Shown: positions 433 through 21,600 of the stretch, piece after piece
How the letters are laid out: each line of letters begins with the position of its first letter
Position numbering within the stretch: the first letter of the stretch is position 1
IMG/VR virus record: IMGVR_UViG_3300031565_000314
Span: 1-26,370 of that record
Direction: 5' to 3' (one strand)
Origin: a virus
Length of the DNA: 26,370 nt
Translations under genes and position numbers: made by a program
The notes under the pieces: generated by a model
What the model was told of the DNA's origin: nothing
What the model saw: only the letters and a program-made list of their open reading frames with translations
The model's database searches: none

Positions 433-458
433 ATTATATATCTGAATTAAGCAGCAAA
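433..458 (-). promoter_or_regulatory. Possible promoter before the left-edge gene
   Basis: Read on the minus strand, a perfect TATAAT lies at 438-433, about 42 bases upstream of the ATG at 391. A TTTG, like the Bacteroidota -33 box, lies at 458-455 with a 16-base spacer and overlaps the end of the uvsW-like gene. The downstream half does not match the TAnnTTTG consensus, and such strings are common in AT-rich DNA, so this is only a candidate. Confidence 0.22.
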
Positions 459-1970
459 CTTTAGCTTCTTAACTATATAAGGGAATTGTTGGTCAGCATA
501 TATAACCTGGCGTTCAATACCATGCTTATATAGTTTGTTTTTCCAGTTACCCCAAGTAAAATCATCGACAAAATCAACTATAACTAATTTGTCTTTTTTA
601 CTATGAAGTCTTAATCCACGACCTATACTCTGTCTGATAACAATTTCAGATTTAAATGATTCTGTAAAAAATATATTATGTATATTCTTAATACTAATAC
701 CAGTACTGAACGTACCAAAACTAGCAACAAGAATAACATTATCATGTTGCTCCATTTTCTTTTTATAAGCTTCACGTAAATCATCATTAATACTACCATC
801 AACATAGTATATTAATTTATCTGGACATTTACGTCTTAGGGCTTTATAAATTTCTTCACCATGGTCAAGTCTGTGGAATAAAACTAATGCATTTTTAGTA
901 GATTTACCAATAATATTAGTAATCATATTTAACCTATCAGTATTTCCTATAACATAATTTTGTTCTAAGTTAAAAACTTTTTTACGTTCATTAGGGTCTG
1001 GGTTTCTAGAAAGTGTATGAAATGCTTCTTTCACTTCATCAGGTGCATAGTCAAGTTCAATTACTTTAACTTCACATTTAGCTACGAATCCTTTCTTTTG
1101 CAAGAAGTTTGCATTAACTTCATTTACTAAAGGTCCTGTATAACACATTAATGTTAATCTATCTAGGGTACCTGGCTTTGGAAATGTACCAGTTAAACCA
1201 TATCTATAATCGACATTCACGCATTTCTCTAAAATAGTTTTTATTGATACTGCTTTTACTTTATGCATCTCATCAACAATAACTGCATCAAAATCATTAA
1301 AGTAATCTTCTTTCTTTTTAACTAGTGATTGATATGTACCGATTACAATGTTACTATCCTTCTTTGGTTTTTGCCCAGAATAGATAGGTTCTATTTTAAG
1401 TTTAACTTGATTTTTATTATTAAATGCATAGAAATCTTCTTCAGCTTGATTTACTAAACTTACGTTAGGCACAATAAATAAAATTCTCTTTGCTAAACCA
1501 TGTTGTAACATGTAAGCTACTGTTAAGAAACTAATTAATGTTTTACCTGCAGATGTTGCTAATTCGGCACTGCACTTTCTAAATTTTAAAATTCTGAATG
1601 CAGATTCAATTTGATATTCACGTACTCCTGTGAAGCCATCCATTTTAAATCCTTCGAAAAAATCATTAGCCCATTTTGTAAAATCTTCTAATTGAATATC
1701 ATTATCAAATATATTACTTAAATCTTTAAAATAAATTGGATGATTAAATTTCTTAGCCATTTCTACTAATTCACGCCATAATCCTATTGGAATATAGCGG
1801 TCATTATAAAGATAGCAATAATATCCATCCCAGTACCCATTCTTAACTCTAGGATTAAACTTTGCATTTTTTACTTGCTTAGTTAAAGTAATCCTAATTT
1901 GTTCTAACTCAATTTCACTTGCTTCTGTTAAAACTAAAAATCTACTATCTTCACTTATTTCAAATACCAT
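447..1970 (-). CDS. uvsW: UvsW-like SF2 helicase (recombination and fork remodelling)
   Basis: This 507-residue protein is a superfamily 2 helicase of the T4 UvsW type. In T4, UvsW unwinds branched DNA, regresses stalled forks and removes R-loops, which moves replication from origins to recombination. The N-terminal ~100 residues match the small UvsW DNA-binding domain. Helicase motifs follow in order: motif I ATSAGKT at 138-144, motif II DEMH at 233-236, motif III GLTGTF at 258-263, motif V ASFGTFSTGIS at 416-426, and motif VI QSIGRGLR at 447-454. All key residues are intact, and the length is close to T4 UvsW (about 500 aa). Its ATG overlaps the TAA of the UvsY-like gene (TAATG), which suggests coupled translation. 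The adjacency to uvsY also echoes the T4 map. The family is secure. Confidence 0.93.
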   Translation of the reverse strand: MVFEISEDSRFLVLTEASEIELEQIRITLTKQVKNAKFNPRVKNGYWDGYYCYLYNDRYIPIGLWRELVEMAKKFNHPIYFKDLSNIFDNDIQLEDFTKWANDFFEGFKMDGFTGVREYQIESAFRILKFRKCSAELATSAGKTLISFLTVAYMLQHGLAKRILFIVPNVSLVNQAEEDFYAFNNKNQVKLKIEPIYSGQKPKKDSNIVIGTYQSLVKKKEDYFNDFDAVIVDEMHKVKAVSIKTILEKCVNVDYRYGLTGTFPKPGTLDRLTLMCYTGPLVNEVNANFLQKKGFVAKCEVKVIELDYAPDEVKEAFHTLSRNPDPNERKKVFNLEQNYVIGNTDRLNMITNIIGKSTKNALVLFHRLDHGEEIYKALRRKCPDKLIYYVDGSINDDLREAYKKKMEQHDNVILVASFGTFSTGISIKNIHNIFFTESFKSEIVIRQSIGRGLRLHSKKDKLVIVDFVDDFTWGNWKNKLYKHGIERQVIYADQQFPYIVKKLKFAA

Positions 1971-2425
1971 TAGATGGTTGCAATATTAATTCTATTTTTA
2001 ATAGCCCAAGCCATTTGATCGAGTGTTCTTACGCATTCACTATAATAATCAATTTGAATTTCTATAAAATTAATTTGTTTTTTAATATAATGTAAGTCGG
2101 CAATTACTGCAGCATCTTTATGCTTATCACTCATTTTATAATCATGATTATAATAATCAAGTAGTTTAGTCTTGTAACTTCTCTCATAGCTACTTTTAAT
2201 CTTTCTTAAACGTATATTGAGTTTTGCTAACTGGTCTATAATCATTTGACGATATGATAGCATTGTTACCTGAGAGTCAGATAGATTCTCAACGTTATTA
2301 AGTGTCTTAACAAGGGTAACAATTCTATCACCCCAGTTCGTACGCTGTTCAGCGAGTTGTTTTTCAATTGCTTCTAACTTTTCGTCATTAGTTAATTCAG
2401 CATTTTGTTGTACGTTATCTTCCAT
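1970..2425 (-). CDS. uvsY: UvsY-like recombination mediator
   Basis: This 151-residue, mostly helical protein is probably the recombination mediator that helps load a UvsX/RecA-type recombinase onto gp32-coated single strands. Its C-terminal half resembles T4 UvsY (137 aa). It has KTKLLDYY at 85-92 (T4 has a similar KARLDYYSG) and ends with LDQMAWAIKNRI at 135-146, comparable to the LDAIKSRGFAIKHI stretch of T4. The first ~35 residues are acidic and look like an extra N-terminal extension. The gene sits directly before the uvsW-like gene, with which it shares a TAATG overlap, and two bases after the 69-aa gene. The similarity is weak but runs in register, and the neighbours support it. A profile search would settle it. 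Confidence 0.68.
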   Translation of the reverse strand: MEDNVQQNAELTNDEKLEAIEKQLAEQRTNWGDRIVTLVKTLNNVENLSDSQVTMLSYRQMIIDQLAKLNIRLRKIKSSYERSYKTKLLDYYNHDYKMSDKHKDAAVIADLHYIKKQINFIEIQIDYYSECVRTLDQMAWAIKNRINIATI

Positions 2426-2427
2426 TT

Positions 2428-2637
2428 TTAAAACAGTTTAGTGTTATTACTATTTCTCTTTTCAGGTATATAAATCTTTACCCTATTATTAGAATATACG
2501 GGAGAAAAATCGGAAAGTTTCATACCGGCGTATGAATATTTAGATGCATCGAGTTCATCAAGTAAAATTTTAAGTTTTTTACTATCAGTAACTGCATCAT
2601 CTAGAAATTGGTTATATTCTTGTTCAAATTCGTTCAT
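2428..2637 (-). CDS. Small hypothetical protein between primase and UvsY-like genes
   Basis: This 69-residue protein is not recognised. It has an acidic helical first half (residues 1-35) and a basic C-terminal end rich in Asn, Lys and Arg, with no cysteines or membrane segment. Its ATG overlaps the primase TAA in a TAATG, and it ends two bases before the next start, so it fits a translated chain in the operon. T4 also carries very small open frames near uvsW and uvsY, but I see no specific match to them. It is called as a gene because of the exact junctions on both sides and the lack of any other explanation for the gap. Confidence 0.65.
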   Translation of the reverse strand: MNEFEQEYNQFLDDAVTDSKKLKILLDELDASKYSYAGMKLSDFSPVYSNNRVKIYIPEKRNSNNTKLF

Positions 2638-3755
2638 TATATATAATATAAATCTATTATCTTATTAGAGAAGTATTTGTTTATATATTTGTAGGAATCT
2701 ATCTTGTTTTTATAACATAATTTAATGATATCGTTTAAATCTTTAATTGTATCTTCTTTAGTTACATATCGCATTAAATCATAGTCAGAAATAAATTTCT
2801 TCCATAAAAAGACATCATGACCTTTTTTTAATTGGTCACCTGCAGCATCTTTCCCACTTCTGTCATTATCATAGAAATATCTAACAGATGGTATATCATC
2901 AAACATCGACATATCTCTATTAACAGTAGCCTGCCCTATAGAGTTTTTCATAAACTTTGAATCTATAGGTCCTTCAAAAGAAGTTACGGTTTGTGTAAAA
3001 TCAACGCTAAGAATACCGAATATAGTAGAAAGCTTATTTAATTTTTCTATTTCTATTTCATTCTCACATTTATCTAATGTTGTTAATCCTGCTTGTTCAC
3101 GTAATCTTTCAATATGGAACGTAAAGTACTTACTACTTGTATCTTTTGATATTCTTCTAACTTGATACCCAATCACTGACTTTCCATCAGGTGTTAAATT
3201 TAATACAAATAATCTACCCTGCCTCCATGAGAACTCTTTACTCTTATTAGTAAGTAAACGCTCTTTTAATATTTTATAACCTTGACTTTTTTCATCAATA
3301 GGTCTTGTACCTGTTATCCTATAAAAGACATCAAGTGGAATGCTTAATTCCTTTAATTTTTCGAATAATTCAAACTCAATGTTTCTTGCTTTAATACTTA
3401 TAACTTGATTAGTTTTAATGTAATCCATTATAGCTAATCTCTCGTCAGTATTAATATTAACTGCATTGTGTTCTTTTAATAGCATATGTAATGGTCTGTG
3501 TATGTTACAGCCATAATTATAACAGTGATACATTAAAGTATTCCAAAATAAGTTACCCCTTTTCTTCTTATTATCTTTTTCACTATCCCCACAATAAGGG
3601 CATGCAAAAGTCAAACGACCATGCATGTCCTTGATACTGGTTTTAGGTCCTGAACCAAAAGAAGTGTCCAGAATATTCTGGACACAACTCTTAATTTTTT
3701 CCCTAAAATCTTTATCTAATAGAGGGTTAATTGGGTTTGTCTTAGACATTAACAT
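2637..3755 (-). CDS. DnaG/gp61-like DNA primase
   Basis: This 372-residue protein is a primase with the two parts expected of the T4 gp61 and DnaG family. The N-terminal zinc-binding region has CPYCGDS at 52-58 and CYNYGC at 78-83. The central part holds a TOPRIM catalytic domain with the glutamate motif FEGPID at 260-265 and the acidic motif DNDRSG at 296-301. It would make RNA primers on lagging strands together with a replicative helicase, which is not in this window. The second zinc half is unusual: the Cys spacing is C-x4-C rather than C-x2-C. Two starts are possible (3755 and 3749, reading MLMSK). The first is used because it lies four bases after the ssb stop. Its TAA overlaps the ATG of the 69-aa gene. 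Confidence 0.87.
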   Translation of the reverse strand: MLMSKTNPINPLLDKDFREKIKSCVQNILDTSFGSGPKTSIKDMHGRLTFACPYCGDSEKDNKKKRGNLFWNTLMYHCYNYGCNIHRPLHMLLKEHNAVNINTDERLAIMDYIKTNQVISIKARNIEFELFEKLKELSIPLDVFYRITGTRPIDEKSQGYKILKERLLTNKSKEFSWRQGRLFVLNLTPDGKSVIGYQVRRISKDTSSKYFTFHIERLREQAGLTTLDKCENEIEIEKLNKLSTIFGILSVDFTQTVTSFEGPIDSKFMKNSIGQATVNRDMSMFDDIPSVRYFYDNDRSGKDAAGDQLKKGHDVFLWKKFISDYDLMRYVTKEDTIKDLNDIIKLCYKNKIDSYKYINKYFSNKIIDLYYI

Positions 3756-3759
3756 CTAA

Positions 3760-4692
3760 TTAGATACCTAAGTTATCTAAAAATTCGTCTAAGTTCTCGT
3801 CACCTGCATCGTTAGATTTAGCTTCTGACTCATCTTGAGATTCATCTTCAACTATAACTTTCTTAGCTACAGGTTTAGAAACTGATGGCTTAGAAGAAGG
3901 TGTCTTAGTGATTGCAGATACTGCGTCACCCGGTGAACGATATTGATTTAATATTGACTGAAGTTTAGTTTGGTCTTCAGATGACATTGGTTTGTATTCG
4001 AATTGATCTAATGATGGTGCACTGTCCATGAATTTTTTAAGTGATTCACGTCCTGCTTCATTAGCTTCAACTTCTACTCCATTTATTTCAATTGCTGTTC
4101 CAGCATCTTCAAATGATGTATCATCATAATTATTGAAATTACCTTGTCTTGTAATATACAAGTCCATGTTACGACCGTTGAAGAAGTTAAATATATCAAC
4201 TTTCTTACCAGTCTTAGGATTTAAGTATCTATCAAGTTTAGCTTTAAGCTTAACTCCATATTTTAATACCATAATTTTACCATTGTTAGCTGGTTTAACA
4301 GCGTCATCAATGATATAAACTAAAGAATAGAATACATCACGCTTTTGTAATTTCTCAGCGTTCTTTCTATCTAAAGCACTTTCACTCTTTGAAAGTTTTC
4401 TCCACAATTGTGCACATTCACAACTATTCCAATCTCCTACTGATTGAGGACTATCAAAGGTATAACCCTTGTCTGTCTCATCCTTAAGGAAATAAGTTAC
4501 TTTGTGAATGATTGATTTTGTTGGATTTGATGGATTGTAAAGAAATCTTACTTTCGCTTGATAAATTCCATCTGAAGCATCTTTTGCTTTGGGTGCGAAG
4601 ATAACTGAATCGTTTTTCTTCTCTCTGTTGTGTGTTTCAACTTCGATAGCCTTTGTACCGAAAATGTCAAAACCGTTGTTTTCTGTTGCCAT
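3760..4692 (-). CDS. gp32-like single-stranded DNA-binding protein
   Basis: This 310-residue protein matches the architecture of T4 gp32 (301 aa), which coats single strands during replication, recombination and repair. The core contains KRDVFYSLVYIIDDAVKP at 117-134 followed by NNGKIMVLKYGVKL at 136-149, the same order as the T4 segment that ends in an EGKVFKYRFGKKI-like strand. After a Ser/Pro/Lys-rich linker (about 263-282), the protein ends in an acidic tail (283-310, closing DENLDEFLDNLGI). In gp32 this tail recruits partner proteins. The zinc site of T4 gp32 appears lost: only Cys91 and Cys93 are present. An in-frame TAA 15 bases upstream fixes the start region. The gene follows the only long non-coding leader in the window. 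Confidence 0.87.
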   Translation of the reverse strand: MATENNGFDIFGTKAIEVETHNREKKNDSVIFAPKAKDASDGIYQAKVRFLYNPSNPTKSIIHKVTYFLKDETDKGYTFDSPQSVGDWNSCECAQLWRKLSKSESALDRKNAEKLQKRDVFYSLVYIIDDAVKPANNGKIMVLKYGVKLKAKLDRYLNPKTGKKVDIFNFFNGRNMDLYITRQGNFNNYDDTSFEDAGTAIEINGVEVEANEAGRESLKKFMDSAPSLDQFEYKPMSSEDQTKLQSILNQYRSPGDAVSAITKTPSSKPSVSKPVAKKVIVEDESQDESEAKSNDAGDENLDEFLDNLGI

Positions 4693-4970
4693 AAACTTTT
4701 GCCTTTTTTAATTGTTTAACTTGTTTTTAATTGCCTAATACTAGAGTCATTAAAGTGTAATCTTTAAATAGTTCTGGCCAGTAACGTGTTTAATAATATG
4801 CCTTTTAAATGCCTGTTTCTTAGTTGAGATATATATTGTCGTCTCAGGATTAGTTTCAAAGATTTTTTAGAAAAAAACTTAGGGAAATCTTTGATAATTC
4901 TGAAACAAAGCCTGTGGGGTTGGCTTATAATGATTAAGAGGTCTTAAGCCAATAAAGGGGCCTTTGACCT
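4693..4970 (-). promoter_or_regulatory. Structured leader of the gp32-like gene
   Basis: This is the only stretch near 300 bases without a gene. I see no open frame, tRNA or Shine-Dalgarno core in it. It is rich in inverted repeats: TTGGCTTA (4920-4927) with TAAGCCAA (4945-4952); AAAGATTT (4858-4865) with AAATCTTT (4885-4892), flanked by GTTTCA (4853-4858) and TGAAAC (4901-4906); a CTGGCCAG dyad (4774-4781); and TTAAAG (4750-4755) with CTTTAA (4762-4767) around a 6-base loop. The last ~55 bases before the ATG are A-rich and free of obvious structure. T4 gene 32 mRNA has a folded leader plus an unstructured stretch bound by gp32 for autorepression, and this arrangement looks similar. Promoters and a terminator for the upstream gene may also lie here but none matched a consensus. 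Confidence 0.5.
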
Positions 4971-5711
4971 TTAACTCTCTGGGTAACTTTCCCAAAGACA
5001 TCTGGCAATAAAATACGAATCTACTAGATCGTCGATAGGTTTTGGTATTTTTACCTTCTTAACATTGCGACTTAGTTCTAAGTTTAAACAATGTTTATGG
5101 AAATCTCCGCAAAGCATTTCGTCATGGTAATCTAATCGAAAATTACCTTTCTTATCTTTCTCTATTCGCTCTTTATATTTTTCCTTGATAAATCTATATT
5201 CTCCAATAAAGACGTCGAATAAATCAGCCTTATCGTAAGAGCCATATCCAGCTAGTTTTTTTATGGCTTTAGGCGAGTACACATCAAGGGTAAATTTTTT
5301 GAAAATATCTTTTTCAAGTATTAAAGTCTTGAGTGCGGTCGTTGCGCCTATAATATCTATAAGATTATTTGACTGTGAGCCAAATGAGTAGCCTTCAAAC
5401 CCAATATGTATTGTTGATTGTTTAAGTTCGCTGTTTGTTAAATTTGAAGTAATGAAATCTAATATAGCTAGAGCCTGTTCTCTATAATGAGATATTTTAG
5501 CAAATTCATTTCTACTATAAGTAGCTTCTACTAATTGGTCATTTTGAAAAACTAAGTCTACGTCCTTAAGGCACTGTACGTCTTCTTGACGTTTTAGGTC
5601 TTTCTTTTCTAATTTCTTTGGATGTGAAATAAATTTGTACTTCTTATCTTTAAGTATACAAATAGCCGGACTCTTTAAGGAATAGTCAATTCCAATATAA
5701 ATGTGATTCAT
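4971..5711 (-). CDS. RuvC-like (RNase H-fold) Holliday junction nuclease
   Basis: This 246-residue protein has the acidic residue pattern of RuvC-type resolvases. A first-strand aspartate lies in YIGIDYSLKSPA (Asp9), a glutamate in IGFEGYSFG (Glu106), and closely spaced aspartates in KPIDDLVDSYFIA (Asp227, Asp228, Asp231) on the last helix. A basic stretch around SPKAIKKLAGYGSYDK (146-161) matches the helix that RuvC enzymes use for junction contacts. It would cut four-way junctions formed during recombination-dependent replication so that DNA can be packaged. T4 uses the unrelated gp49 (endonuclease VII) for this job. It starts six bases after the glycine-zipper head protein gene and precedes the gp32 leader. 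Another RNase H-fold nuclease role is possible. Confidence 0.75.
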   Translation of the reverse strand: MNHIYIGIDYSLKSPAICILKDKKYKFISHPKKLEKKDLKRQEDVQCLKDVDLVFQNDQLVEATYSRNEFAKISHYREQALAILDFITSNLTNSELKQSTIHIGFEGYSFGSQSNNLIDIIGATTALKTLILEKDIFKKFTLDVYSPKAIKKLAGYGSYDKADLFDVFIGEYRFIKEKYKERIEKDKKGNFRLDYHDEMLCGDFHKHCLNLELSRNVKKVKIPKPIDDLVDSYFIARCLWESYPES

Positions 5712-5716
5712 TATAA

Positions 5717-6100
5717 TTAAATTAAGCGACCACCAAGTGCACTACCTAAAGCTGCACCTACTAATCTACTAGTTAACATCTCATATACGATACCTTTTTC
5801 GATACCTAAAACTCTTGCAATAATTTTACCTATTGTCTTACCTAATGCGAATCCTGTAAGGCCGCCTAATATAGAACCTATAAAACCTTCTTTAACAAGG
5901 TCTTCTTGTAAATTATTAATATCTTTATTATTGTCTAAATATTCTTTAACAAAAGCATCTATTGCTTCATCTATTTTAGCTTCTTCGTCTTCTGTAAGTT
6001 CATGTTTATAACTTTCATTTAAAGCTTCAAGTAATTGCTGGTCAGATAAACTATTTGTCTTCTCATTAATAAAATCTATAAATGTCTTAGTATCTTTCAT
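5717..6100 (-). CDS. Probable internal head protein with glycine zipper
   Basis: This 127-residue protein has two parts. The N-terminus MKDTKTFIDFINE/K carries the targeting-like K-T-F-x-x-F motif and an immediate INE site for a gp21-type protease. It is followed by an acidic helical stretch to about residue 70. The C-terminal third is hydrophobic and glycine-rich. Gly75, 79, 83, 87 and 91 are spaced exactly four apart, and Gly115, 119 and 123 repeat the pattern. Such GxxxG zippers pack membrane helices closely and occur in membrane-inserting and channel-forming peptides. By inference it is carried inside the head and may act on a membrane when DNA is delivered. A structural core role or a holin-like role are alternatives, though the targeting peptide argues against a holin. 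It ends six bases before the RuvC-like gene. Confidence 0.72.
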   Translation of the reverse strand: MKDTKTFIDFINEKTNSLSDQQLLEALNESYKHELTEDEEAKIDEAIDAFVKEYLDNNKDINNLQEDLVKEGFIGSILGGLTGFALGKTIGKIIARVLGIEKGIVYEMLTSRLVGAALGSALGGRLI

Positions 6101-6103
6101 TAG

Positions 6104-6742
6104 TTAATAATTATTTGCATCTGGATTACCTTCCATTTCTTTAGATAAAGCTTTAGCAGCAATACTTGCAATAGCTGGATTTTCTTCCATCATTGATTCC
6201 ATCTTTTCTGTATACACTTCTCTAATAGACTTCATCATTGAATTTATATATTCATGAGTTGTATCATATACAACCTGCTCATCATATGCTTTTTCATTCG
6301 TCTTCTTCATCGCAGCTTTTGCGGCAACTAAAGAAAATTCAACGTTTTCTTTCATTACTCTAGTACACATTTCTGCCATTGTTGTAAAACATTCGGTCAT
6401 GAATCCTTCTAATGTATGTGCAGGGTCTTCATCATTTTCATTATTACAAGCTTCTGCATACATTTGTTTGTACATTTCATATATACGTTCATTTAAAGAT
6501 ATCTTTTCAGGTTCAACATCCTTCTTATCATCTGAAGTATCTTCATTTGTTCCGTATACTTCTTTAGCATTATTTATAGTATCTTCAGAAAAGCCTTCAG
6601 ATTCCAATGCAGTAATAAACTTATCTAAGTCTTCCCATATATTATCTTCACCATACTGTTCAATAAACGCAATATATTTACGTTCGTCATCAGTAACTAT
6701 AGACTCATTTATAAATTGATTAAATGTCTTAAAATATTCCAT
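6104..6742 (-). CDS. Probable prohead core/internal protein, paralogue A
   Basis: This 212-residue protein is acidic and largely helical. It begins MEYFKTFNQFINE/S, the best match in the window to the T4 targeting peptide, with an INE cleavage-type site after residue 13. Residues about 20-82 form an acidic region absent from its neighbour. Residues 88-204 align with the next protein upstream (6742-7251), including ENDEDPAHTLE at 102-112 and a late helix with EYINSMMKSIREVYTEK at 164-180. Acidic helical proteins with such peptides are typical of scaffolding cores or co-packaged internal proteins. It overlaps its paralogue through TAATG and is three bases from the glycine-zipper gene. The exact role is not known from sequence. 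Confidence 0.75.
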   Translation of the reverse strand: MEYFKTFNQFINESIVTDDERKYIAFIEQYGEDNIWEDLDKFITALESEGFSEDTINNAKEVYGTNEDTSDDKKDVEPEKISLNERIYEMYKQMYAEACNNENDEDPAHTLEGFMTECFTTMAEMCTRVMKENVEFSLVAAKAAMKKTNEKAYDEQVVYDTTHEYINSMMKSIREVYTEKMESMMEENPAIASIAAKALSKEMEGNPDANNY

Positions 6743-7251
6743 TAGACTTTATTTCTTTTTTTATATATCTCAGTTTTTTCTTCTTTGATTTTTTTCATTA
6801 CCAAAGTAGCTGATGAATGGTTTGTCTTCTTAAGTTCATCTAACTTTTCACAGAATGATTCTTTCATTGAATCTATACATGCATCTAGGTATTCTTTTAA
6901 TTCATCTCTTTGAGAATTATAATCATTACCACTATCTTCACCTACGAACTGATTAGATACTGTTCTAAGAGCTGTAAAATAATCATCACTGTGCATTGCT
7001 TTAGCTGCTGCAGAACCCATAACCATTGCAGTTTCTTTTAAATATTCTTCAAGAGTATGTTCAGGGTCATTATCATTTTCATAATTAGCTGCATCTAATA
7101 TAGCTTCGTATAAAGATTCCCACAATTTCTTTTGTGTTTTCTCAGAAACTACTTTAGAGAAATTAACTCCTGGTTTTCTACTTACTGTTTCATTTTCTTC
7201 CAATGATTTATTGGCATTCATGAAATCTTCAAATGTTTTAATGTTTTTCAT
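6742..7251 (-). CDS. Probable prohead core/internal protein, paralogue B
   Basis: This 169-residue protein starts MKNIKTFEDFMNANKSLEE/N. It has the shared K-T-F-x-x-F motif and a candidate protease site (LEE) a little later, at residues 17-19. The body is paralogous to the next gene: ENDNDPEHTLE at 58-68 matches its ENDEDPAHTLE, and EYLDACIDSMKESFCEK at 120-136 matches the late helix. It lacks the ~60-residue acidic insert of the paralogue. The C-terminus is basic (KKIKEEKTEIYKKRNKV), which could contact DNA. It directly follows the tail tube-like gene, a place where T4 also carries portal and prohead core genes nearby. It is likely co-translated with its paralogue through a TAATG overlap. 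Confidence 0.75.
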   Translation of the reverse strand: MKNIKTFEDFMNANKSLEENETVSRKPGVNFSKVVSEKTQKKLWESLYEAILDAANYENDNDPEHTLEEYLKETAMVMGSAAAKAMHSDDYFTALRTVSNQFVGEDSGNDYNSQRDELKEYLDACIDSMKESFCEKLDELKKTNHSSATLVMKKIKEEKTEIYKKRNKV

Positions 7252-7252
7252 A

Positions 7253-7804
7253 TTAATCTAATTCTATTAGTACTTCTAATTCGTTATACGCTATTGATAA
7301 TTCAAATGTTGAAAATTCTGCAACGTTACTAGCAAATGACATTGATAAATCACCTATATTTTTAATTAAAGGTCTTTTTATCCTAGCTGTAACAATTATA
7401 TTACCTTCTGAATCCGTCATTCTAACATTTAAGTCTTCAATAAACTTCTGTCCATTACTAAATTTATAATAATAGTTTAAAGTATCTAGCATCATCCAAT
7501 AATTAATGAATCCATCAACTAGTTGAAATGTAACTGTAAATTCTTTTTGAAATAATTCCTGAGTTGGTAATGTATTACGCCAAGATATTTGTCTTCCTGA
7601 GTATTGAGCTTGTACAACTGGTTCAAATCCCATTCCAGGTAAATTAATACTTTGTATAGTATAATTTAAAAAATCTAATGGTTCTTCAATAACATTTCCT
7701 GGCATTCTGTTCAGATACGGTTTATACTTATCTGAAATTTCCTTAGGTATAAAATTCTTAGGAAAGTGAAATTCGAATAAATTATTCCTTGCGTCTAATA
7801 ACAT
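7253..7804 (-). CDS. Tail tube-like protein (gp19/gp54 type)
   Basis: This 183-residue protein is probably the myovirus tail tube subunit or a close baseplate relative such as gp54. It has the features of this fold. An early strand region ends in SINLPGMGFEPV (about 53-64), comparable to the ATALPAG turn of T4 gp19. Next come KEFTVTFQLVDGFINYWMM, a strand plus helix in which the tube family has its FDDWTVTV and nearby helix. The C-terminal IGDLSMSFASN...FSTFELSIAYN block closely parallels the VGELQLDWDSN...IQTFEVTLALD end of gp19. T4 gp19 is 163 aa. No sheath gene is in the window. The start is two bases after the TAA of the preceding 742-aa gene is read through in another frame, so the genes nearly touch. 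Tube versus baseplate cannot be separated by eye. Confidence 0.62.
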   Translation of the reverse strand: MLLDARNNLFEFHFPKNFIPKEISDKYKPYLNRMPGNVIEEPLDFLNYTIQSINLPGMGFEPVVQAQYSGRQISWRNTLPTQELFQKEFTVTFQLVDGFINYWMMLDTLNYYYKFSNGQKFIEDLNVRMTDSEGNIIVTARIKRPLIKNIGDLSMSFASNVAEFSTFELSIAYNELEVLIELD

Positions 7805-7805
7805 T

Positions 7806-10034
7806 TTATAACTTTATGTTTTTAATATTCTGACCTTTTAAACTATTAAAAGATTTTTGTGATATAAATTGCTCAGCACCTTTACTTATATTATTCTTTA
7901 TATTTTTAATAACAGGTGATACAATATTTAAATTACTTATTGCTTTAGTTTCACCTGATAATAAACCTTTAATTGTATCAGCCATCGTAGTATTATATTG
8001 AGCTAACATTTCAGAAGCCTGTGATAATGATCTTCTTAGATTATTATTATCTTCAGTTAATTGTGTATTACTTACTGTTAATCTATTTACAGTTTCTGTT
8101 AAACTTGAAACTTCTGATGTACTAACTATACCTGATAGTGCAAGTTGATTATTAAGATTAGCTATTTTTTCAGAATCACGTACTTGTATTTTTTCATCAA
8201 CTCTATACCACTTACCAAAATAAACTAATGTTTCATCACTCTTTGCATCATTTAATTCTAATCTAGATGATAAGTAAAAGTTTCTAGAATTATGCTTAAG
8301 TATTTTACTAGCTTCTTCTTTAGTTACTTTAAATAAAAGTTCTCCTTTAATAGGACTTAAATCTTTTACATTTGTATAATTTGATACACGCACTTCATCA
8401 CCTGTTGACTCATCAGTAAATGATAAATAGAAAGTTCCCATATTAGTTAAATCTAATAATTGAGGCTGTTTAGCACCTGTGGCTTCTTGTAATGTATTGT
8501 CATATAAAACAAATAATATAAAATTATCAAAAGGCGTAAGGCTGATTGCAGCTTCGCCTAATGGCCATATTTCTTCTGTCGGTGTCAATGATGTAATTTC
8601 AATAGCTGCATTTGCAACTCTAGTACTTTGCCCAGATTCAGTCGGTGATATATCACCTTCTTGTAATGTAGATGGTATTGACTTAACTGTACCAATAGAT
8701 GCACTTACCTTTAAGCGTTCTCTGAATCCCATTACAAATTGAGTTTCTTTAGTTATATTAGATTGAGTACCTTCAAAAATAGCTGCAGGGTTATTAAGAA
8801 CTATTTTAGAGACTTCATCAGGTAAAACATTATAAACTTTAGTTACAGTTGGTACTGTTCCCATATTTATTTTACGTATTCTTCTACCATACTTCTTTAC
8901 ATCAAAAGAACTGTATTGTGATTGTTTAATAACCTGTGTATTATCAACTTTATTAATTAATCTTAAACTATAGTCAATACGATATGATACAGCTATATGC
9001 GAATTAAGAATTATAGGTCTAAACACATAAGGCTCTCCAAAATCATTTGATTGTATAAAAGCTTGTTCTGTAGTTAATAAGAAACTTGTACCAACTTGTT
9101 CGAACACATTTATTTCATGCATTACAATCATATTAGTATTTGGCTGCTGATTTAATCCTAAAATAAAATCTTCATAAATATCACCATTATATTCTCCATA
9201 TATTTCAAAATAATCTCCGCCTTCAGATTCTTTTACAACTGCTGATAACAAGCTATATTCATCAGTCTTATTAATTGATGCAGTACTAGATTCTCCAATA
9301 TAGAAATAAGTCTGGGCATTAATAGTCTCAGTTTTATTAATAAATTTAGCAGTCAACTCTATAGTACTTTGAGTAAGTAATCCAGAATTACTAGTTAATT
9401 GATTAGCAAGTATTCCTGTATTATTAGGAGCACTTAAATATTGGTCAGTCATCCAATCTAATGCAGGTACTTTTAAAAGAAGATACTTAGTGTAAAGTCT
9501 TTCACCTATAATTAGAGGTTTAGGATTATTAATTTCATAATTATCTGGCTTCAAATAAGCAAGTGAAGCAAGGTTGTGTTTATTACCAGTACGATCTCTT
9601 ATTAATACTTCAAATATAATACCATCATTCTCAAAGAAATCAAATCCTGCTAGTAAATGAACTTTAATCGTATCGTATTCAATAGATTTAGCCGGAATAT
9701 TATAAGGACCAGTTAATTGATTTTGATAAGATGCAACGTTTATTAAATTTGGGTCAAAATCTAAATATTGTAAAGCAGTATTGGTTGTTAAGTATGCATA
9801 CTTAGATTTATCAGCTGCTATTGGTATTGCACTTAATACTCTAGTGTTACCTGTATACTCATACGGATTATCTTCATTAAATAAGAAGTTTGTATTAGTA
9901 TAAGTATTATTTAAGATATGGATTCTAGACCCATTGGTGTCAGTATCAATTGTTTCAGGCGCCGACGGGTCCCTGTAGATATATTCTACAAGAATCTGAG
10001 GAGTTAACTGTAAAAATTTTGAAGTACTTGCCAT
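7806..10034 (-). CDS. Large virion structural protein with C-terminal coiled coil
   Basis: This 742-residue protein is not recognised as a named family. Most of it is beta-rich with no cysteine-based or enzymatic motif, as expected of a tail, neck or baseplate component. Near the end, residues about 623-682 form a coiled coil (NLNNQLALSG then LTETVNRL, QLTEDNNNLRRSL), followed by a ~60-residue basic tail with repeated Lys-Asn-Ile elements (SPVIKNIKNNISKG, QNIKNIKL). It lies between the small helical protein and the tail tube-like gene, one base from each neighbour. Position and composition support a structural role in the tail or in its attachment. Its homologues should be sought among Bacteroidota phages. 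Confidence 0.6.
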   Translation of the reverse strand: MASTSKFLQLTPQILVEYIYRDPSAPETIDTDTNGSRIHILNNTYTNTNFLFNEDNPYEYTGNTRVLSAIPIAADKSKYAYLTTNTALQYLDFDPNLINVASYQNQLTGPYNIPAKSIEYDTIKVHLLAGFDFFENDGIIFEVLIRDRTGNKHNLASLAYLKPDNYEINNPKPLIIGERLYTKYLLLKVPALDWMTDQYLSAPNNTGILANQLTSNSGLLTQSTIELTAKFINKTETINAQTYFYIGESSTASINKTDEYSLLSAVVKESEGGDYFEIYGEYNGDIYEDFILGLNQQPNTNMIVMHEINVFEQVGTSFLLTTEQAFIQSNDFGEPYVFRPIILNSHIAVSYRIDYSLRLINKVDNTQVIKQSQYSSFDVKKYGRRIRKINMGTVPTVTKVYNVLPDEVSKIVLNNPAAIFEGTQSNITKETQFVMGFRERLKVSASIGTVKSIPSTLQEGDISPTESGQSTRVANAAIEITSLTPTEEIWPLGEAAISLTPFDNFILFVLYDNTLQEATGAKQPQLLDLTNMGTFYLSFTDESTGDEVRVSNYTNVKDLSPIKGELLFKVTKEEASKILKHNSRNFYLSSRLELNDAKSDETLVYFGKWYRVDEKIQVRDSEKIANLNNQLALSGIVSTSEVSSLTETVNRLTVSNTQLTEDNNNLRRSLSQASEMLAQYNTTMADTIKGLLSGETKAISNLNIVSPVIKNIKNNISKGAEQFISQKSFNSLKGQNIKNIKL

Positions 10035-11255: not shown

Positions 11256-12462
11256 ATATTTTTTTATTTAATATTTATTAAAAACCAGGTATAGGGCCAC
11301 CTAATGCAATATATTCACCAAAGTTTGCAAAATGTATATTTCCATTACTATCAGCAAACATTATTGCTCCTGCTTGCCCATTTCCACTTTCATGTTTACC
11401 ATAAACTACTTCAGGTGCATTTAACGGTGCATTAGGATTACTAAACCATGCATTAAATCCAATATATGAAGCACCTCCTATATTTGTTTGAGTAAATGAA
11501 TTATTACCATACACATTTAAACCATTAATTGTTCTATCTTCAAATGTACCAATATTAACTTCATCTGGGTCATAATTAAATCCACCAAATGGTGTAGGTG
11601 CATTTAACTCAGGATCAGGAATACTGTCTCTACCTTTTATTGTTAATATATGTTTTGGTCTAAGTGTATTAATACCTATAAATCCAGTTTCCTTCTTTAT
11701 AACAATTCTATGATGTGTTGTATTAGTTGGATTAGCAAGTGTTTTATTACCTATAACTAAATCACTAGTTTCATATTGGTAAATATTAAATCTTTTATCA
11801 ACGTCTAAATCTCCTGCAAATACATTACTTACAACTGAATGCCATATTCTAGCACCTGAAGTTAAGCTTCCATAAAAATCACCAGATGATGGAGTTAATG
11901 TTCCAAATCTTATAAAATGTAAACCTGTACCATCTGTATCATTTATAGTTAATCTTGAATCTGTAGCAAAACCTCCTATATTTAAACCCATTTTACCAAG
12001 ATTAGCATTTTTGCTTTGTCTAAATGTAATAGGTGAATTAGATGGATTAGATGCTGGATTGCTACCGCTATTAGAACCAGGCTCAGTTACTGGAAATATA
12101 AATAAATTTAATTCAGCCGATGTATCAGTTACTGTTGGGTTTTGTTTTATAAACCAAGCAGCTCTTCCATTACCTACTGAACCGTAAATAGGTTTAAATG
12201 CTGAAGCAACAGTATCATAATAAATATTATCACCTAAAATATTATTATCTGCGCCAATAATTATTGAACCGTTTACTTGTAATATATGAGCACTGTTAGC
12301 AGGAAATGTACTTGTACCAATTCCAACTCTACCTTCTATTATTGCACCACTAGCATCAGGTGATATAAGATTACCATAGTTTACACCTACACTTATATTA
12401 CCCTTAATACCTAATTTTGATTGAGGTATAGTTCCTGTTGTAAACGTACCAATACCAACATT
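10827..12462 (-). repeat. Five protein-level copies of a VGIGT...LxVxG motif in two fibre genes
   Basis: Copies encode NVGIGT...KLGIKGNI (12394-12462), RVGIGT...LQVNGSI (12262-12330), MGLNIGG...RLTIN (11941-11991), FIGINTLRPKHILTIKG (11632-11682) and, in the next gene, NVAINT...KLNVGGNI (10827-10886). The motif is a short turn followed by a beta strand and is often seen in shafts of fibres and in Bacteroidota surface proteins. The DNA copies have diverged, so this is not a recent duplication. Confidence 0.6.
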
Positions 12463-13611
12463 CTTAATAGTATTATTTTGTAACATTATATGAGGTGTCG
12501 ATGCTATATTAGCTGCAGGTGAACCATATCCAGTTGCAGATGTAAATATATTAATCCAGTTATTAGCTGGCTCAAAATATTGATTTAAAACATTAGTTGA
12601 TAATGCTCCAGTAGGTGCTGTATATTTAGTATATTGTAAACCTGAACCAAGAGAAGGATGATAAACTTCAACTGCGCCACCTTCATAGATATGAATAGAT
12701 GCATTAGGATTTTGTGTATAAGTTAAATAATTTAAACCACCTGCCTGTATAGTAATATTACTATCATTAGATTGAACTATTATTTGTTTACTAGTACCAA
12801 CTGCAGAACCTAATAAAATAAAATCACCTGCTGATGTCATTGTCATCGTAGCACCAAAATCTTCATCTCCTGGATTTACTAATTCACTATGAATTGCTGG
12901 ATTATTAAAAGCAATATGAGTTAAATCTGTATTAATAGTTAAAGCTGCACTAGAATTATCTAATTTATAAACATCATTATAAGCTCCTATAAAAACACGT
13001 GTTGTATCTTGACCAGTAACATGTTTAGGATAAATAATATCGTCTGTAAGTGCAGATTCTCTAATCCACTCACCCGTTGCATTTATACCACTGTTACCTG
13101 TATTACCTTTTATATTAACGCCTGTAAAACTCCATGTAGCTGATATTGCATTAAATTCCCATATGTCACCGTCAGTACTTGCATAGGAATTAAATGTATC
13201 ATTACCTTCTTGTAAATATAAATCTCCACCTCTTACTGGCTTAATAGGAATATTAAGAGTATAAGTATTTTCTGGAAATATCCAAGGCAATGCAGGCGTA
13301 GTACCTGTAGGTGCTATTGGTTGAAATCTATTTGGGTCTCCTTTAAATTGAGGATATCCAGGTGCAAGTATATTATTTACCCTTGTCGGAGAACCTGTCC
13401 AGCTTGGAGAATCAGGTGTTGTCCATAAGTCAATAGCTGTAAACCATATTGTACCTCTAGGTCCAATTGGGCCTAGACCGCCTGGTCCACCCTTAAGTCC
13501 TATAGGACCGCCTCCATTCAATAAGAGCTGATCAAAATTAAAGTTAATTTTGTTAACTAACTCATTAACTTTATCTGAAGCTAGCAGTTCCTTGATGACA
13601 ATATTAGCCAT
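11278..13611 (-). CDS. Tail fibre with collagen-like segment
   Basis: This 777-residue protein is probably a long trimeric tail fibre or tip fibre. Its N-terminus (residues 1-31) reads ELLASDKVNELVNKINFNF in its core and resembles the start of the 212-aa protein at 24259, so it may be the attachment part. It is followed by six collagen-type Gly-X-Y triplets at residues 35-53 (GPIGLKGGPGGLGPIGPRG), a known trimerising rod in phage fibres. The rest is a long Asn/Thr/Gly/Ser-rich beta shaft with four VGIGT...LxVxG repeats between residues 384 and 660. It ends in a glycine-rich C-terminal segment. There is no clear self-cleaving chaperone domain at the end. Its ATG overlaps the TAA of the 1660-aa gene in a TAATG. 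Confidence 0.78.
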   Translation of the reverse strand: MANIVIKELLASDKVNELVNKINFNFDQLLLNGGGPIGLKGGPGGLGPIGPRGTIWFTAIDLWTTPDSPSWTGSPTRVNNILAPGYPQFKGDPNRFQPIAPTGTTPALPWIFPENTYTLNIPIKPVRGGDLYLQEGNDTFNSYASTDGDIWEFNAISATWSFTGVNIKGNTGNSGINATGEWIRESALTDDIIYPKHVTGQDTTRVFIGAYNDVYKLDNSSAALTINTDLTHIAFNNPAIHSELVNPGDEDFGATMTMTSAGDFILLGSAVGTSKQIIVQSNDSNITIQAGGLNYLTYTQNPNASIHIYEGGAVEVYHPSLGSGLQYTKYTAPTGALSTNVLNQYFEPANNWINIFTSATGYGSPAANIASTPHIMLQNNTIKNVGIGTFTTGTIPQSKLGIKGNISVGVNYGNLISPDASGAIIEGRVGIGTSTFPANSAHILQVNGSIIIGADNNILGDNIYYDTVASAFKPIYGSVGNGRAAWFIKQNPTVTDTSAELNLFIFPVTEPGSNSGSNPASNPSNSPITFRQSKNANLGKMGLNIGGFATDSRLTINDTDGTGLHFIRFGTLTPSSGDFYGSLTSGARIWHSVVSNVFAGDLDVDKRFNIYQYETSDLVIGNKTLANPTNTTHHRIVIKKETGFIGINTLRPKHILTIKGRDSIPDPELNAPTPFGGFNYDPDEVNIGTFEDRTINGLNVYGNNSFTQTNIGGASYIGFNAWFSNPNAPLNAPEVVYGKHESGNGQAGAIMFADSNGNIHFANFGEYIALGGPIPGF

Positions 13612-16600
13612 TATTTCTTAATAATTTTAATACTGGGTGCAACTGAATAGTAATAACCCTTTGTTTTATTATATATCACTCGTAGGTTGAAGTTACTTCT
13701 ACCAGTAAGTGTGCTGAAATTGAAGTCTTTTACTTGACTCATACCATTAAGATTTTTACTAGTATCTACGATAGTTGAATTAATTACAGGCTGAGTATTA
13801 TTTAAAGTATTATCTCTAGATTTATTAACATATAATTCAATTAAACCTATTTTATATCTAGGTAAAATGTTATTAATAATATAACCATCAATGTCATCTT
13901 TAAGAGAATCCTGTAAACCATACCCATATTCTGGTTTAATATAAGTATTAAAATAATCTTCAATTCCTATTGATGCTAATACTTCAGTTAATTTTTTTTC
14001 TAAATAAATATCAATAATTATTTGATTAGGATTATTTAAATAAACAATCTCATAAGGATTATCAGGTTTAAGAATTTCTGTTCCTATAGTTTCAAGCTCC
14101 AATTCTGAAGTTGCTTCTATTGCATCAAATGTTTCAATTTGAATATCATCTAGAATTTTCATTATCTTAGAACCAAAGAAAGATTTTTTCTCAATAATAC
14201 TTCTCGTACCGATAATAGGACTACTATTAGTTTTACCAATATATCTGTCAAAATAACCAGCATCCCAGTTACTAGTAAATGTATAAAAATCTTTCTTATC
14301 AATAGCTATTTCTCCAATTAATGGATATCTAGGTTTAAACGCATCTATCTTAGTTAATTCTAGTACACCTTTTTTATTCTTATCATTTATTTTATGAAAG
14401 AACATATTTCTAATTAATCCAAAATTAGAATCTATTTTAAGCTGAGTATTTTTATCTCTTATAAAACTTCTAATTTGACTTTCTCTTAGAATATCACTAC
14501 TATAAATATTAGTAATATATGGATCTTCAAAATTAATTATATCAATAAATTTAGGTTGATATTTACCACTATGTCTATAAATTGGCTGAACTGTAGCTCT
14601 ATCTTTTACTATTAATTGATGTCCTATTATATCAGTTAAATTAAAATTAACAGGTTTATTATTATCAGTTACTGCTCTAAGATAACTAGGCTTAACTGTA
14701 GGCTTTGGCGTTTGTAATTCTATTACAAATAAATTATCTATAATGTTACCGTTTTCTAAAACAGTATGATATGATATATCAGGACTACCATTATTTATCA
14801 AATCAGCAATTGTTGCATAAGATACTTTAGTAAGTCTTTGATTCCAATATCTGTAACCTCCATCAATATAAATATAACTACCATTTTCAACCTGTGTATT
14901 AGTTAATGAAATCGGTTGAGGGCCTCCTGTTATTGGACTAGCTTTAAAATAATCATCAGTTAACACATCTGTAACTTGAAAATATCTTGTACTAGTACCT
15001 GAAGTAGCTTGTACTATATTATATGAACCTTGTTTATTTAATATGATTTCATCAATAAATTGTGTAAGTTCTCCAGTAGAGTTTGCACCGCCTCTAACAT
15101 TACCTAAACCAAAGCTAGTACCAGAACTTAATCTCATATCAATAGCCCCAGTTAAAATAACATCTTCATAATCCATAGTGTTATCACTATTTAAGTCAAT
15201 TGATTTAATTGATTTAAATCTACTATCTAATGCATATAATATAGTTCTATCAATAAATGCAGACGGTTCAGTAACAGTAACTGTAGATATATCCCTTTTA
15301 ATGGAATTAATAAAATCATCAATCCTTACGTATATTACTAATGTAATGTTTTTGAATTTTCTATTTTCTATAAATTCAATTTCTACGGATTTTCTTTTTG
15401 TACCCAATGGATATTGTCCAGAATGTGGAATAAGAACACTAGAAAACTTATAATCGTTATATCTATTACTTTCTTTAAATTTAATAGTTTGTAGATTATA
15501 ATCTATTTTTGTATTCGATTCTATTCTTTCTTTAACAATGGCTTTTACTCCTCTAAGAAACGCTGTAGAGAAATTAACATTAGTACCACCATCAAATACA
15601 CCATACCTTAATTGTTTCTTTACAGGTACTAATTCCTCGCTCATTATTATTTCACCTGTAGTATCTAATATAGGGTATTTAAGTAAATCAACTGTAAAAT
15701 ACTCAGTGAAGTAATCATCAGTAATATTATATAAACCACTCGATGTTACATCTAACGGATCAGGGAAGTAACTAAATACATCATTCATTTTAGACTTATC
15801 ATAAAGTCCAAAATAATATGGCAGCTTTTGTAAGTAATACCATTCATGTGTAAAATAGTCAGGGTCTCTAGTAAATTCGTCTTCAGAAGGTGAGAAATTA
15901 GTAATTCCAAATGCTTCAGACGATATTAATCTATAGTCGTGCTCTCTTGTATCTTTTCCGTTTCTATAAACCCATTTATTAATATAAGGTGTAACTCTAG
16001 AAGGCGTAGATAATTCTTGTATAGAATTTTCTTTAAGTCTATCGTATTCAATCTCTATCTTAGGAGATGTTATTTCAGAATCAACACTTTCATTTTCCAA
16101 TAATCCCTGTAAAGTAACAAACTCTTTATTTTTATAAAAGTCTTCTATTTCTTCCTGTGTATATGTAGATGTATTATCAAATTGTTTATAAAAATCTGAT
16201 TCTATATTTAATTCTCGCTCATCACCATATTCTGTACTATAGAAATCCATATCCATATCTTTAATAGGGAATATTGAAAATCTACCAAATGAAACTTTAA
16301 ATAATTCATATAAATAAATATGCTTTATAGAATCTCTAAAAATAACTTCATTATCTTCTATAATAATTGTACAATACTTATCTATGTTTTTATATCCTAT
16401 TATTTTACCGTCTTTATTCTTAATAGGTTCATCTATATAATATGAAACTTTTTTAACAGGAGCTAATCCGCTTTCTTTTCCAGTTTTATCTATAGATTTA
16501 ATATATCTATTAGGTATGTCGAAATCATTAAATGAATTGATGTCTATAAAAACTCTACTACCAGGTTCATTATTACCACCTTCATAATACCATGTATTAA

Positions 16601-18628: not shown

Positions 18629-21600
18629 TTATTTATTACTAGAAGATGTAATATTAGGAGTAACTGCAATATTCTTAGAAACATCATCTAGAGCTAATCT
18701 AATGTCTCTAGAAGGTATTTTTTCTAAATTAAGTTTATTAGAACGATATTTAGCAAAAACTTCAATATCGAAAGAAAATCTTTCATTATCACCTAAATTA
18801 ATATCAAAACCCATTCTCTTAGAATAAGTCAAATCTCTAGTAGCTCCTGTTCTATCGCCACCGATAAATCCAATACCTGTATCTCCAACTCCACCAAAAT
18901 CAGTCATTCTATATTGGAATACTATAGGAATTTGAACTGCTTTATTAGTACCAAATTCTATAGTCTTAAATGATAGACTGTCATCTCCATTTACTGATAG
19001 TTGAGCCTCATCTGTAGTTGATATAAATAAATAAGAACCTACACTTGCTCTACCTAATGTATATTGGTCATCTGGTTCGAAAGCACATTTAATAGTACGT
19101 AATATTGAACCATCATAGAAATAACCTGTTTGTTTTTTACCATCAATTGCTTCAGCATTTCTTTTTGCAGCTTTGGCATTTACAATAGTTCTACCAGCAT
19201 CTAATGTACCTACTGCAGGTGCAATAGGATTAATAGCTGGATGTAATACATGTAGTAGTATTTTATTACCACTATCATAATCAGTATCAACTCCAGTTAC
19301 CGTAAAGTTTGTAGTTGTATTAGCTAATGAACCATTCCAAATATAATCTGTTGCACTTGTTCCTGCAGGAGTAAATGGATATCCAGTAGAATCAAATCTA
19401 TATTCACCATCATCTACAGTTGTTATGATAGATGAACTTCCTAAGTCTACGTTATAATCTAAATAATAATCTTCAGTACCTGCAATATCTACATATCTAG
19501 CATAAATAAATTGTGCTCTAAGTTGACTGCTTTGATGTGGAGAATTATTTATAAATGTCTGTGCAGTATCTATAGGATTAGTATACAACATAGGCACATA
19601 GTCATATTTACCTCTACTTGTATAATAAGAATCATTTATAATCTGAGCATCTGTCGGTGCACCATCACTAAATTTATTACCAGACTTAAATGCCTGTAAA
19701 CTTCTATTACCATATATTCTAGAAAATAATTCTAATGGAGTAGCTGCAATATTTTCAATAGTAATAAAATATGTTCTTGCTACAATAGCACCTTTCTTAA
19801 TATCTAAGTTTTTAACAATGTCTGCATAATAACCTGCGAATAATTTAACAAGATTATCTTTCTGTACAATATATTCGTTACCATTATCATCTAATATCTT
19901 AACACTAATAGTACCTTTAACTTTCTTAACAATAGCTTCTAATTCAGCAATCTTATTTACCATTTCAGTAAGCTTATCAAATAATGCTATAGGTTTCTGT
20001 TCTGTAGATAAGAATCCTGAGAATATATTTAAAGTATGATGTTTAAATAGCTTTTCATTTGCAGTAAACTGATCATCTACATGAGACAGTACTCCTTTAG
20101 TTGCTAGGTCTTCTTCTAACTTAATTCTTTGTTCTTCCTTAGCATTCTCATCTAATATTGATGAAACTGCATCAGCCTGTACTAAATCATCTGGGAAGTC
20201 CACTCTGATGATATCACTCCAGTCAGATTTAGCTGGATTTGAAGGATAGCCTGCTTCAGATATAGTTCTGAATCTCATTTCTACACCTTCACCTTGTGAT
20301 ATAGTAATATCAACTTGGTTAATGTTATTTCTTTCTGGGTCTTCTACATTTTGTGATTCCCAGATATATGCTCCTGTAGTTTCGTCAAATATTCTTTCTC
20401 TTATTCTTGGTTCAACTTGAACCCAATTACTCTGTGCTCCTATTCTTTCAACACCATTGTCTAAATATTTAAACTGGTCTACTTTATTTGCACCACCGTC
20501 TGAACCGATATATCTATATTCTTGTTCGAATCCAATTATTTCTTGGTCGCCAGTATATTTAGATTTTTGTGGATCAGGAATAGGGAAAAATCCTCTAATT
20601 CTATATTTAGGCTTTGCATCTGTAATACTTTCAGACTTAGCTTTAGCATTAATATCAGATACAATAGAAGCTAATAACTTTGCTGCAGAAGATCTTTGTT
20701 CAATTAATGAGTTTAATTCACTTCTGTCTTTATCTTTTTCAATAGTACTACTATATTGCTTAGTCGATACTGATGATTGTTTATTTGCTATAGCTGTATC
20801 TAATTCCTTTATCTGTGCAGAAAGTCTACTTCTATCATCAGATAATTGCTTAAGTTCTTTAAACGCTGGATTATCAGTAATATGTCCATTAACTTGAACA
20901 ACCTGTAATGCCGTAGGTTCTACTTCAGGCTTATTAGGTTTTATAGCTAATGCCGAAGGGGCTATTCTATCTTTTGCCATTGACAATAGGAATAATCCAA
21001 AGTCAGTTACTTCATTTCTATAATAAGTATCTAATGACACTGGTTCATCAGTATCAGAATTTAATGTAAGTGCATTTGTATAGAATGAAACACCAGGAGA
21101 CCAATTCTCTGCCGGTATTTTAGAAACAGGGTCAACTGCCTTACAAAATAAAACTACATACTTATCAAAGTTAATAGGAACTTGTATTTCAATACTATTC
21201 TCTACATCTTTATAAATAGAAAGAATGTTTGCACCAATTGATATACCTCTATAACCTTCAGTTAATTCTAATTCAACTGTATTTGTAGAAGTGTCAACTT
21301 GTTTAACAGTATATCTTGTGTCTTTAGGGTTAGAGTTAATTACAACACTGTCTCCTGTTTTAAGACTTAAAGTGTCTGGAAATCCAGACTCTAAATCGGT
21401 ATATGTTAATTTATTAAGTTTAAATAATTTTCTTCTAGTTTTTACTTGAGTACCATCTACAAGTACAGAATTAGAAACATCTGATATCTTAATAACATCA
21501 AAGTTTCCACTATATCTTATCTCTCTAGGAGGTAAGTCTCTATAATCATCATCTGGTATAAAATTAATACTTTCATTTATTAACTTAGTATTAAAGTCTA

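Follow-up and report, generated by a model that had tools for sequence, protein, structure and literature searches.

The internal head proteins of bacteriophage T4 (IPI, IPII and IPIII) are basic proteins that share mainly their targeting sequence, an N-terminal signal of the MKT[FY]xEF type that ends in xE and is followed by a small residue; in the T4 record, ipII and ipIII start with MKTYQEFIAE|A and ipI with MKTFKEF. The T4 targeting sequence carries proteins into the core (PMC9958956), and proteases of the T4 type cut after xxE, the SPN3US site being A-X-E with S preferred at P1' (PMC10052503). Another small internal virion protein, gp14 of phage T7 (about 200 aa, several predicted transmembrane helices, other virion type), has been proposed to enter a host membrane and to oligomerise (PMC8954989). 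GxxxG repeats are found in the Pfam families Gly-zipper_Omp (PF13488), Rick_17kDa_Anti (PF05433) and Gly-zipper_YMGG (PF13441), as well as in the T6SS effector Tde1, which is delivered by a contractile machine, resembles phage tape measure proteins and permeabilises the target inner membrane through its N-terminal glycine zipper; Tde1 further comprises a DNase domain and, by prediction, a transmembrane segment (PMC10240207).

Here we describe a viral protein that combines a T4-like N-terminal signal with a glycine zipper. It is encoded in IMG/VR record IMGVR_UViG_3300031565_000314, which was analysed as a complete record of 26,370 bases (hereafter the window), by an ATG-initiated open reading frame of 127 codons at 5717–6100 on the minus strand, where all parts of the gene located below also lie. 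Our main reading, to which we assign a probability of roughly 0.38, is that the gene encodes the precursor of a minor internal head protein that would be recruited, cut, assembled as an oligomer of hairpins and active on a membrane at genome entry. The pathway would begin with an N-terminal signal of the form MKTFxEYLxE bringing the precursor into the prohead core, where the T4-type prohead protease would cut after E29 and E71 and thus remove an acidic propeptide; we regard these two steps, taken together, as probable. Granted both, it is rather likely that the piece staying in the head would be basic, 56 residues long and, according to the structural model, folded into a hairpin of two helices with a ridge of glycines, and that such hairpins would pack into oligomers via this ridge. 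The weakest step, held only tentatively, is the last one, in which the hairpin would leave with the DNA and associate with, or permeabilise, the host inner membrane for genome entry.

Residues 1–13 (MKDTKTFIDFINE; 6062–6100) form a capsid-targeting-like N-terminus, already recognised as such in an earlier sequence-only reading of this DNA, and this assignment was borne out by column conservation, by the match to the T4 ipII and ipIII starts and by an occurrence at N-termini in relatives that is far above chance. Family members start with MKTF-x-[DE]-Y-L-x-E, for example MKTFLEYLNE, and residues 5–13 follow the pattern K5-T6-F7-x-[DE]-[YF]-[LI]-x-E13. The strict signal stands at the starts of 11, 5, 5 and 3 genes in four long contigs and of 8 genes in the part of LR756500 that was read; the count expected by shuffling is 0.01–0.2 per contig, and an internal control position gave zero. 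Moreover, the small gene between the portal (gp20) and protease genes begins with a form of the signal in all four contigs that contain the head module. No known internal-protein profile of Pfam or PHROG matched the zipper protein; since targeting sequences are mainly what the T4 internal proteins have in common, such a match is a weak criterion.

The signal is followed by an acidic, fast-evolving helical linker or propeptide (residues 14–71; 5888–6061), delimited by charge and column entropy, within which lie two conserved protease-like sites. The first, LNE|S at residues 27–30 (6011–6022), is of the type [LIV]xE followed by S, G or A and is present in 48 of 49 homologues. The second, VKE|G at residues 69–72 (5885–5896), marks the start of the zipper domain; E71-G72 is found in 49/49 homologues, most of which read TNE|G, so that P3 is mostly T, the T4 type having I or L at this position. 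The related motif [LIVT]NE[SGA] occurs 2.31 times per 1000 residues in head proteins (portal, core gene, protease-scaffold, MCP and zipper protein) versus 0.39 elsewhere, the head value being about 1.6 without the zipper protein's own eight sites; it is located at residue 6/7 of 5/5 MCPs, and RVNE|[SA] comes just after the protease domain in 5/5 genomes. Across the 49 homologues, the net charge is −9 to −18 for residues 1–71 and +3 to +6 from residue 72 to the end, and a cut at E71 would therefore free a basic fragment from an acidic propeptide. From these sequence features the zipper protein is probably a head-targeted, processed precursor.

The family to which this protein belongs is real, widespread, strongly conserved and uncharacterised. 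A first scan of IMG/VR gave 10 loci and a profile scan at least 438, of which 80 were kept; conservation was calculated from 49 distinct sequences. Scans of the window protein against Pfam and PHROG returned no family, and a PDB sequence search with the family profile gave no significant match. Relatives were found neither in bacterial or archaeal genomes nor in the isolated phages searched, and profile searches of pT24, LR756504 and LR756501 returned no homologue. The only named homologues are in the 462-kb LR756500 and, more distantly, in Lak megaphages of Prevotella (profile E 7.6e-13; reverse tblastn to LR756500 5e-7); used alone as query, the Lak protein finds only Lak-like sequence and LR756500. 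The family, present in hundreds of large contigs of uncultured phages, is common in aquatic viral contigs and strongly constrained, and it has no entry in Pfam or PHROG.

As features in common with T4, the relatives encode a portal of the T4 type (PF07230, 8.5e-67), a gp23-type MCP and an S77-type protease to which a long scaffold-like region is fused. A 2025 survey placed large aquatic phages of Bacteroidota ('moraphages') near Lak and inside a T4-related group, and reported no tape measure gene in them (PMC12619734). Gene content leads us to infer that the zipper-protein contigs belong to the moraphage group; these are probably large T4-type phages infecting Bacteroidota. In Lak-B5 the homologue (497396–497722) lies on the minus strand, as do the three genes after it, which code for 491, 463 and 339 residues, and the prohead protease gene (491572–493317), which comes next, four genes away. 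As this run ends at the prohead protease, it provides a link to head genes that is independent of the usual tail-tube neighbourhood of the family. The Lak protein keeps E29 and E71, each followed by Gly (LFE|G at the first site), and has lost five of the twelve conserved glycines, with G75, G80, G83, G91 and G115 replaced by T, S, S, M and L, respectively.

The sequence-only reading had also noted glycines exactly four residues apart at 75, 79, 83, 87 and 91 and at 115, 119 and 123, and these positions are correct. Zipper 1 (G75–G91) occupies 5828–5878 and zipper 2 (G115–G123) 5732–5758, residues 75–123 together corresponding to 5732–5878; the protein has glycines at 72, 75, 79, 80, 83, 87, 91, 99, 103, 115, 119, 123 and 124, and a single register modulo 4 holds ten of the thirteen. 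Shuffling of residues 70–127 reproduced the two runs, of five and of three glycines, in about 0.1% of trials and placed ten glycines in a single register in 4e-5 of them; when the entire protein was shuffled, both runs appeared in 1e-5. No other protein of the window has a glycine run longer than three. The strongest evidence that the pattern is not due to chance comes from conservation, as none of the twelve glycines at positions 72–123 varies among the 49 distinct homologues, which use varied Gly codons for them. Also invariant are L81, F84, A85, L86, K88, L98, the LTSRL segment L109–L113 and A117. The mean column entropy is 0.55 bits for residues 70–127 versus 1.58 for residues 15–67, mean identity to the window protein is 73% in the zipper domain versus 35% in the N-terminal 70 residues, and dN/dS is about 0.17 in the C-terminal half versus about 0.44 in the N-terminal half, these last values being approximate because dS is near 0.9. 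An LR756500 protein with a run of eleven glycines four apart and a targeting-like N-terminus was set aside, as its run belongs to a linker of QG repeats and the protein is of a different kind.

The predicted mature part (residues 72–127; 5720–5887), basic by net charge, was modelled by AlphaFold2 as a hairpin of helices 73–98 and 104–126, 26 and 23 residues long and composed almost entirely of Gly, Ala, Leu, Ile and Val besides a few charges, with a mean pLDDT of 84.9; the full-length protein gave a poor model (mean pLDDT 65), in which helix 1 is broken at 79–83 with low confidence. Foldseek comparison of the full model with PDB and viral structures returned nothing at E ≤ 0.001. Six matches of the hairpin alone, among them ATP synthase c-subunits, a pore-forming toxin subunit and an SMR transporter, had E values of 5.9–9.5, are not significant and were not used as evidence. 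The glycine runs had been described as lying in hydrophobic segments, which holds only below transmembrane thresholds: the Kyte-Doolittle peak over 19 residues is 1.31, short of the usual transmembrane cut-off of 1.6, and on the Wimley-White octanol scale the best sum is +0.6 kcal/mol. For comparison, a membrane-anchored-looking protein from the same gene cluster in a relative reaches −9.5. Within the predicted helices K88 and R112 are invariant, position 107 is always acidic (D/E107) and K92 is conserved. In its second half, helix 1 is more amphipathic than shuffled sequences (P ~0.01), which fits an interfacial helix and a soluble bundle equally.

The earlier proposal of a head protein that enters the host membrane has accordingly fared differently in its two halves. 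The head half gains support from the N-terminal match and its enrichment, the conserved protease-like sites and the Lak gene run. Membrane action at genome delivery is a plausible hypothesis that we hold with some reserve: the predicted mature piece is a two-helix hairpin of transmembrane length, and against this stand the marginal hydrophobicity, the conserved charges inside the helices and the partial loss of the zipper in Lak.

Comparison with the described systems places the protein apart from each of them. The T4 internal proteins are much less hydrophobic (Kyte-Doolittle at most 0.54), so that the zipper protein differs from them in kind. They also have no glycine zipper (runs of at most two), whereas the zipper protein has a highly conserved hairpin, preceded by a predicted acidic propeptide of some length; outside the N-terminus there is no sequence homology. 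We file it as working like the T4 internal proteins, without homology. PF13488 and PF05433 match weakly in 48/48 members scanned, every bit score seen lying below the curated cut-offs (best seen 20.6 against 25; window protein 12.5); these matches are short and in varying registers, and the zipper protein has no lipoprotein signal. As to an ejection protein of the T7 gp14 type, neither a PHROG match nor a strong transmembrane segment was found. The zipper makes up most of the predicted product here, unlike in Tde1; a GxxxG run is present, hydrophobicity is below threshold and the predicted hairpin length is suitable.

The same hydrophobicity data bear on a soluble alternative, in which the protein would be targeted and processed in the same way and its glycine ridge would pack a soluble oligomer that never enters a membrane, binding packaged DNA or lining the inside of the portal or shell. 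A positive charge of the product (+3 to +6), which recalls that of the basic T4 internal proteins, would suit this role, as would the marginal hydrophobicity, the conserved charges in both helices and the zipper partly lost in Lak; two helices of 23–26 residues made nearly entirely of Gly, Ala, Leu, Ile and Val besides a few charges would not, nor would a hydrophobicity peak far above that of the T4 internal proteins (1.31 vs at most 0.54), and we consider it unlikely, if still worth weighing. Clearly less credible is a prohead-assembly anchor, a hairpin tying the growing core and portal to the inner membrane, comparable to the gp40/gp20 initiator stage of T4, and cut at prohead release. T4 proheads do begin on the inner membrane, helped by the chaperone gp40 (PMC9958956), a core-targeting N-terminus joined to a hydrophobic C-terminus would bridge core and membrane, and high conservation suits an essential assembly factor; however, PHROG and Pfam scans gave no gp40 family match, and the hydrophobicity is again marginal.

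Gene order in the main clade bears on a role in the tail, as a lumen plug, a tube initiator or a stand-in for a part of a tape measure protein that acts on membranes. Upstream of the zipper gene, 76/76 testable loci have a tail-tube gene (in the window the gp19-like gene at 7253–7804, minus strand; phrog_45, E 2.9e-11, and synteny), and the survey of moraphages reported no gene for a tape measure protein (PMC12619734). Yet a RuvC-like gene lies downstream just as constantly, in 77/77 testable loci (in the window the resolvase gene at 4971–5711, minus strand; phrog_159, E 1.2e-10, and synteny), the Lak gene lies close to the protease and a long way from the tail tube, and the N-terminus is of the head type; a tail function is thus improbable. 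Finally, a coincidental N-terminal match in an unrelated late membrane protein such as a holin or antiholin, to which small size and a predicted two-helix hairpin would conform, is very improbable given the motif frequency, the T4 comparison, the conserved cut sites and the lack of a strong transmembrane segment.

Our main reading, a processed internal head protein acting on the membrane at genome entry, draws further support from a zipper domain conserved more than the N-terminus and from a mature piece whose hairpin model reaches pLDDT 85, in contrast to the poor model of the full precursor; the zipper of Tde1 provides a published precedent for glycine zippers that act in membranes (PMC10240207). 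Against it count the absence of the family from the isolated phages searched, the position of the gene, which in the main clade adjoins tail and recombination genes and not the head cluster, an extreme conservation unlike that of the variable T4 internal proteins, the break of helix 1 at the zipper in the full-length model and the T at P3 of the E71 site, in addition to the sub-threshold hydrophobicity, the zipper partly lost in Lak and the in-helix K88, R112 and acidic 107. A more specific version, which we regard as doubtful, is that in T4-derived phages of Bacteroidota, including Lak, the prohead protease would cut a dedicated head-packaged precursor into glycine-packed hairpins, and these, once ejected, would form an inner-membrane channel or seal for genome entry, accompanying the DNA or going ahead of it; in long-tailed phages this role usually belongs to the tape measure protein. 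Were the proposed pathway true, contractile-tailed phages would own a head-borne, protease-activated membrane protein, to our knowledge not described for T4 (see also PMC9958956), and it would help to explain how phage genomes of great length get through the inner membrane in a lineage for which the 2025 survey reported no tape measure gene.

Several further observations concern these phages. In contigs G001, G002, G003 and G004 and in LR756500, 3–11 genes per contig begin with K-x-[FY]-x-x-[FY]-h-x-E, most of them without assigned function; going by this start, they may represent a large set of head-packaged proteins, and the shared N-terminal signal predicts which function-unassigned genes of these phages are head-packaged. 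A gene of Tenacibaculum phage pT24 annotated as DNA ligase (L013:3579-6389) starts with MKNFQSFVDKFVGES, a targeting-like N-terminus on an enzyme. Around the prohead protease of Lak-B5 (L160, 487390–499097), several genes begin with a short segment ending in a site of the LFE/LYE/MES type (9 seen vs 1.1 expected, 94 ORFs), perhaps Lak's form of the signal. The T4-type prohead protease-scaffold fusion is located at L103:13751-15667, with equivalents in G002, G003, G004 and LR756500, and a conserved stretch of the RVNE|[SA]YG type, directly behind the protease domain, resembles a site of self-cleavage.

In the window, two genes with a head-targeting-like N-terminus stand between the tail tube and zipper genes (6104–7251). 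They encode, on the minus strand, proteins of 212 aa (6104–6742; MEYFKTFNQFINE|S, with INE|S at residue 13) and 169 aa (6742–7251; MKNIKTFEDFMN), neither of which has a match in phage records; the 169-aa protein has homologues in the close relatives L017 and L018 only, and since the L018 region in question also gives a weak match to the 212-aa protein, the two may be paralogues. The tail tube and zipper genes lead straight into replication and recombination genes of the same strand (447–5711; RuvC-like, gp32-like ssb, primase, UvsY-like and helicase), an order unlike that of T4. No tape measure protein was identified among the large proteins of the window, three of which (7806–10034, 13611–18593 and 18629–22144) have relatives in these phages and no assigned function. 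Collagen-like repeats (GGGPIGLKGGPGG) stand near the start of a glycine-rich protein encoded at 11278–13611, which resembles tail-fibre proteins of the relatives.
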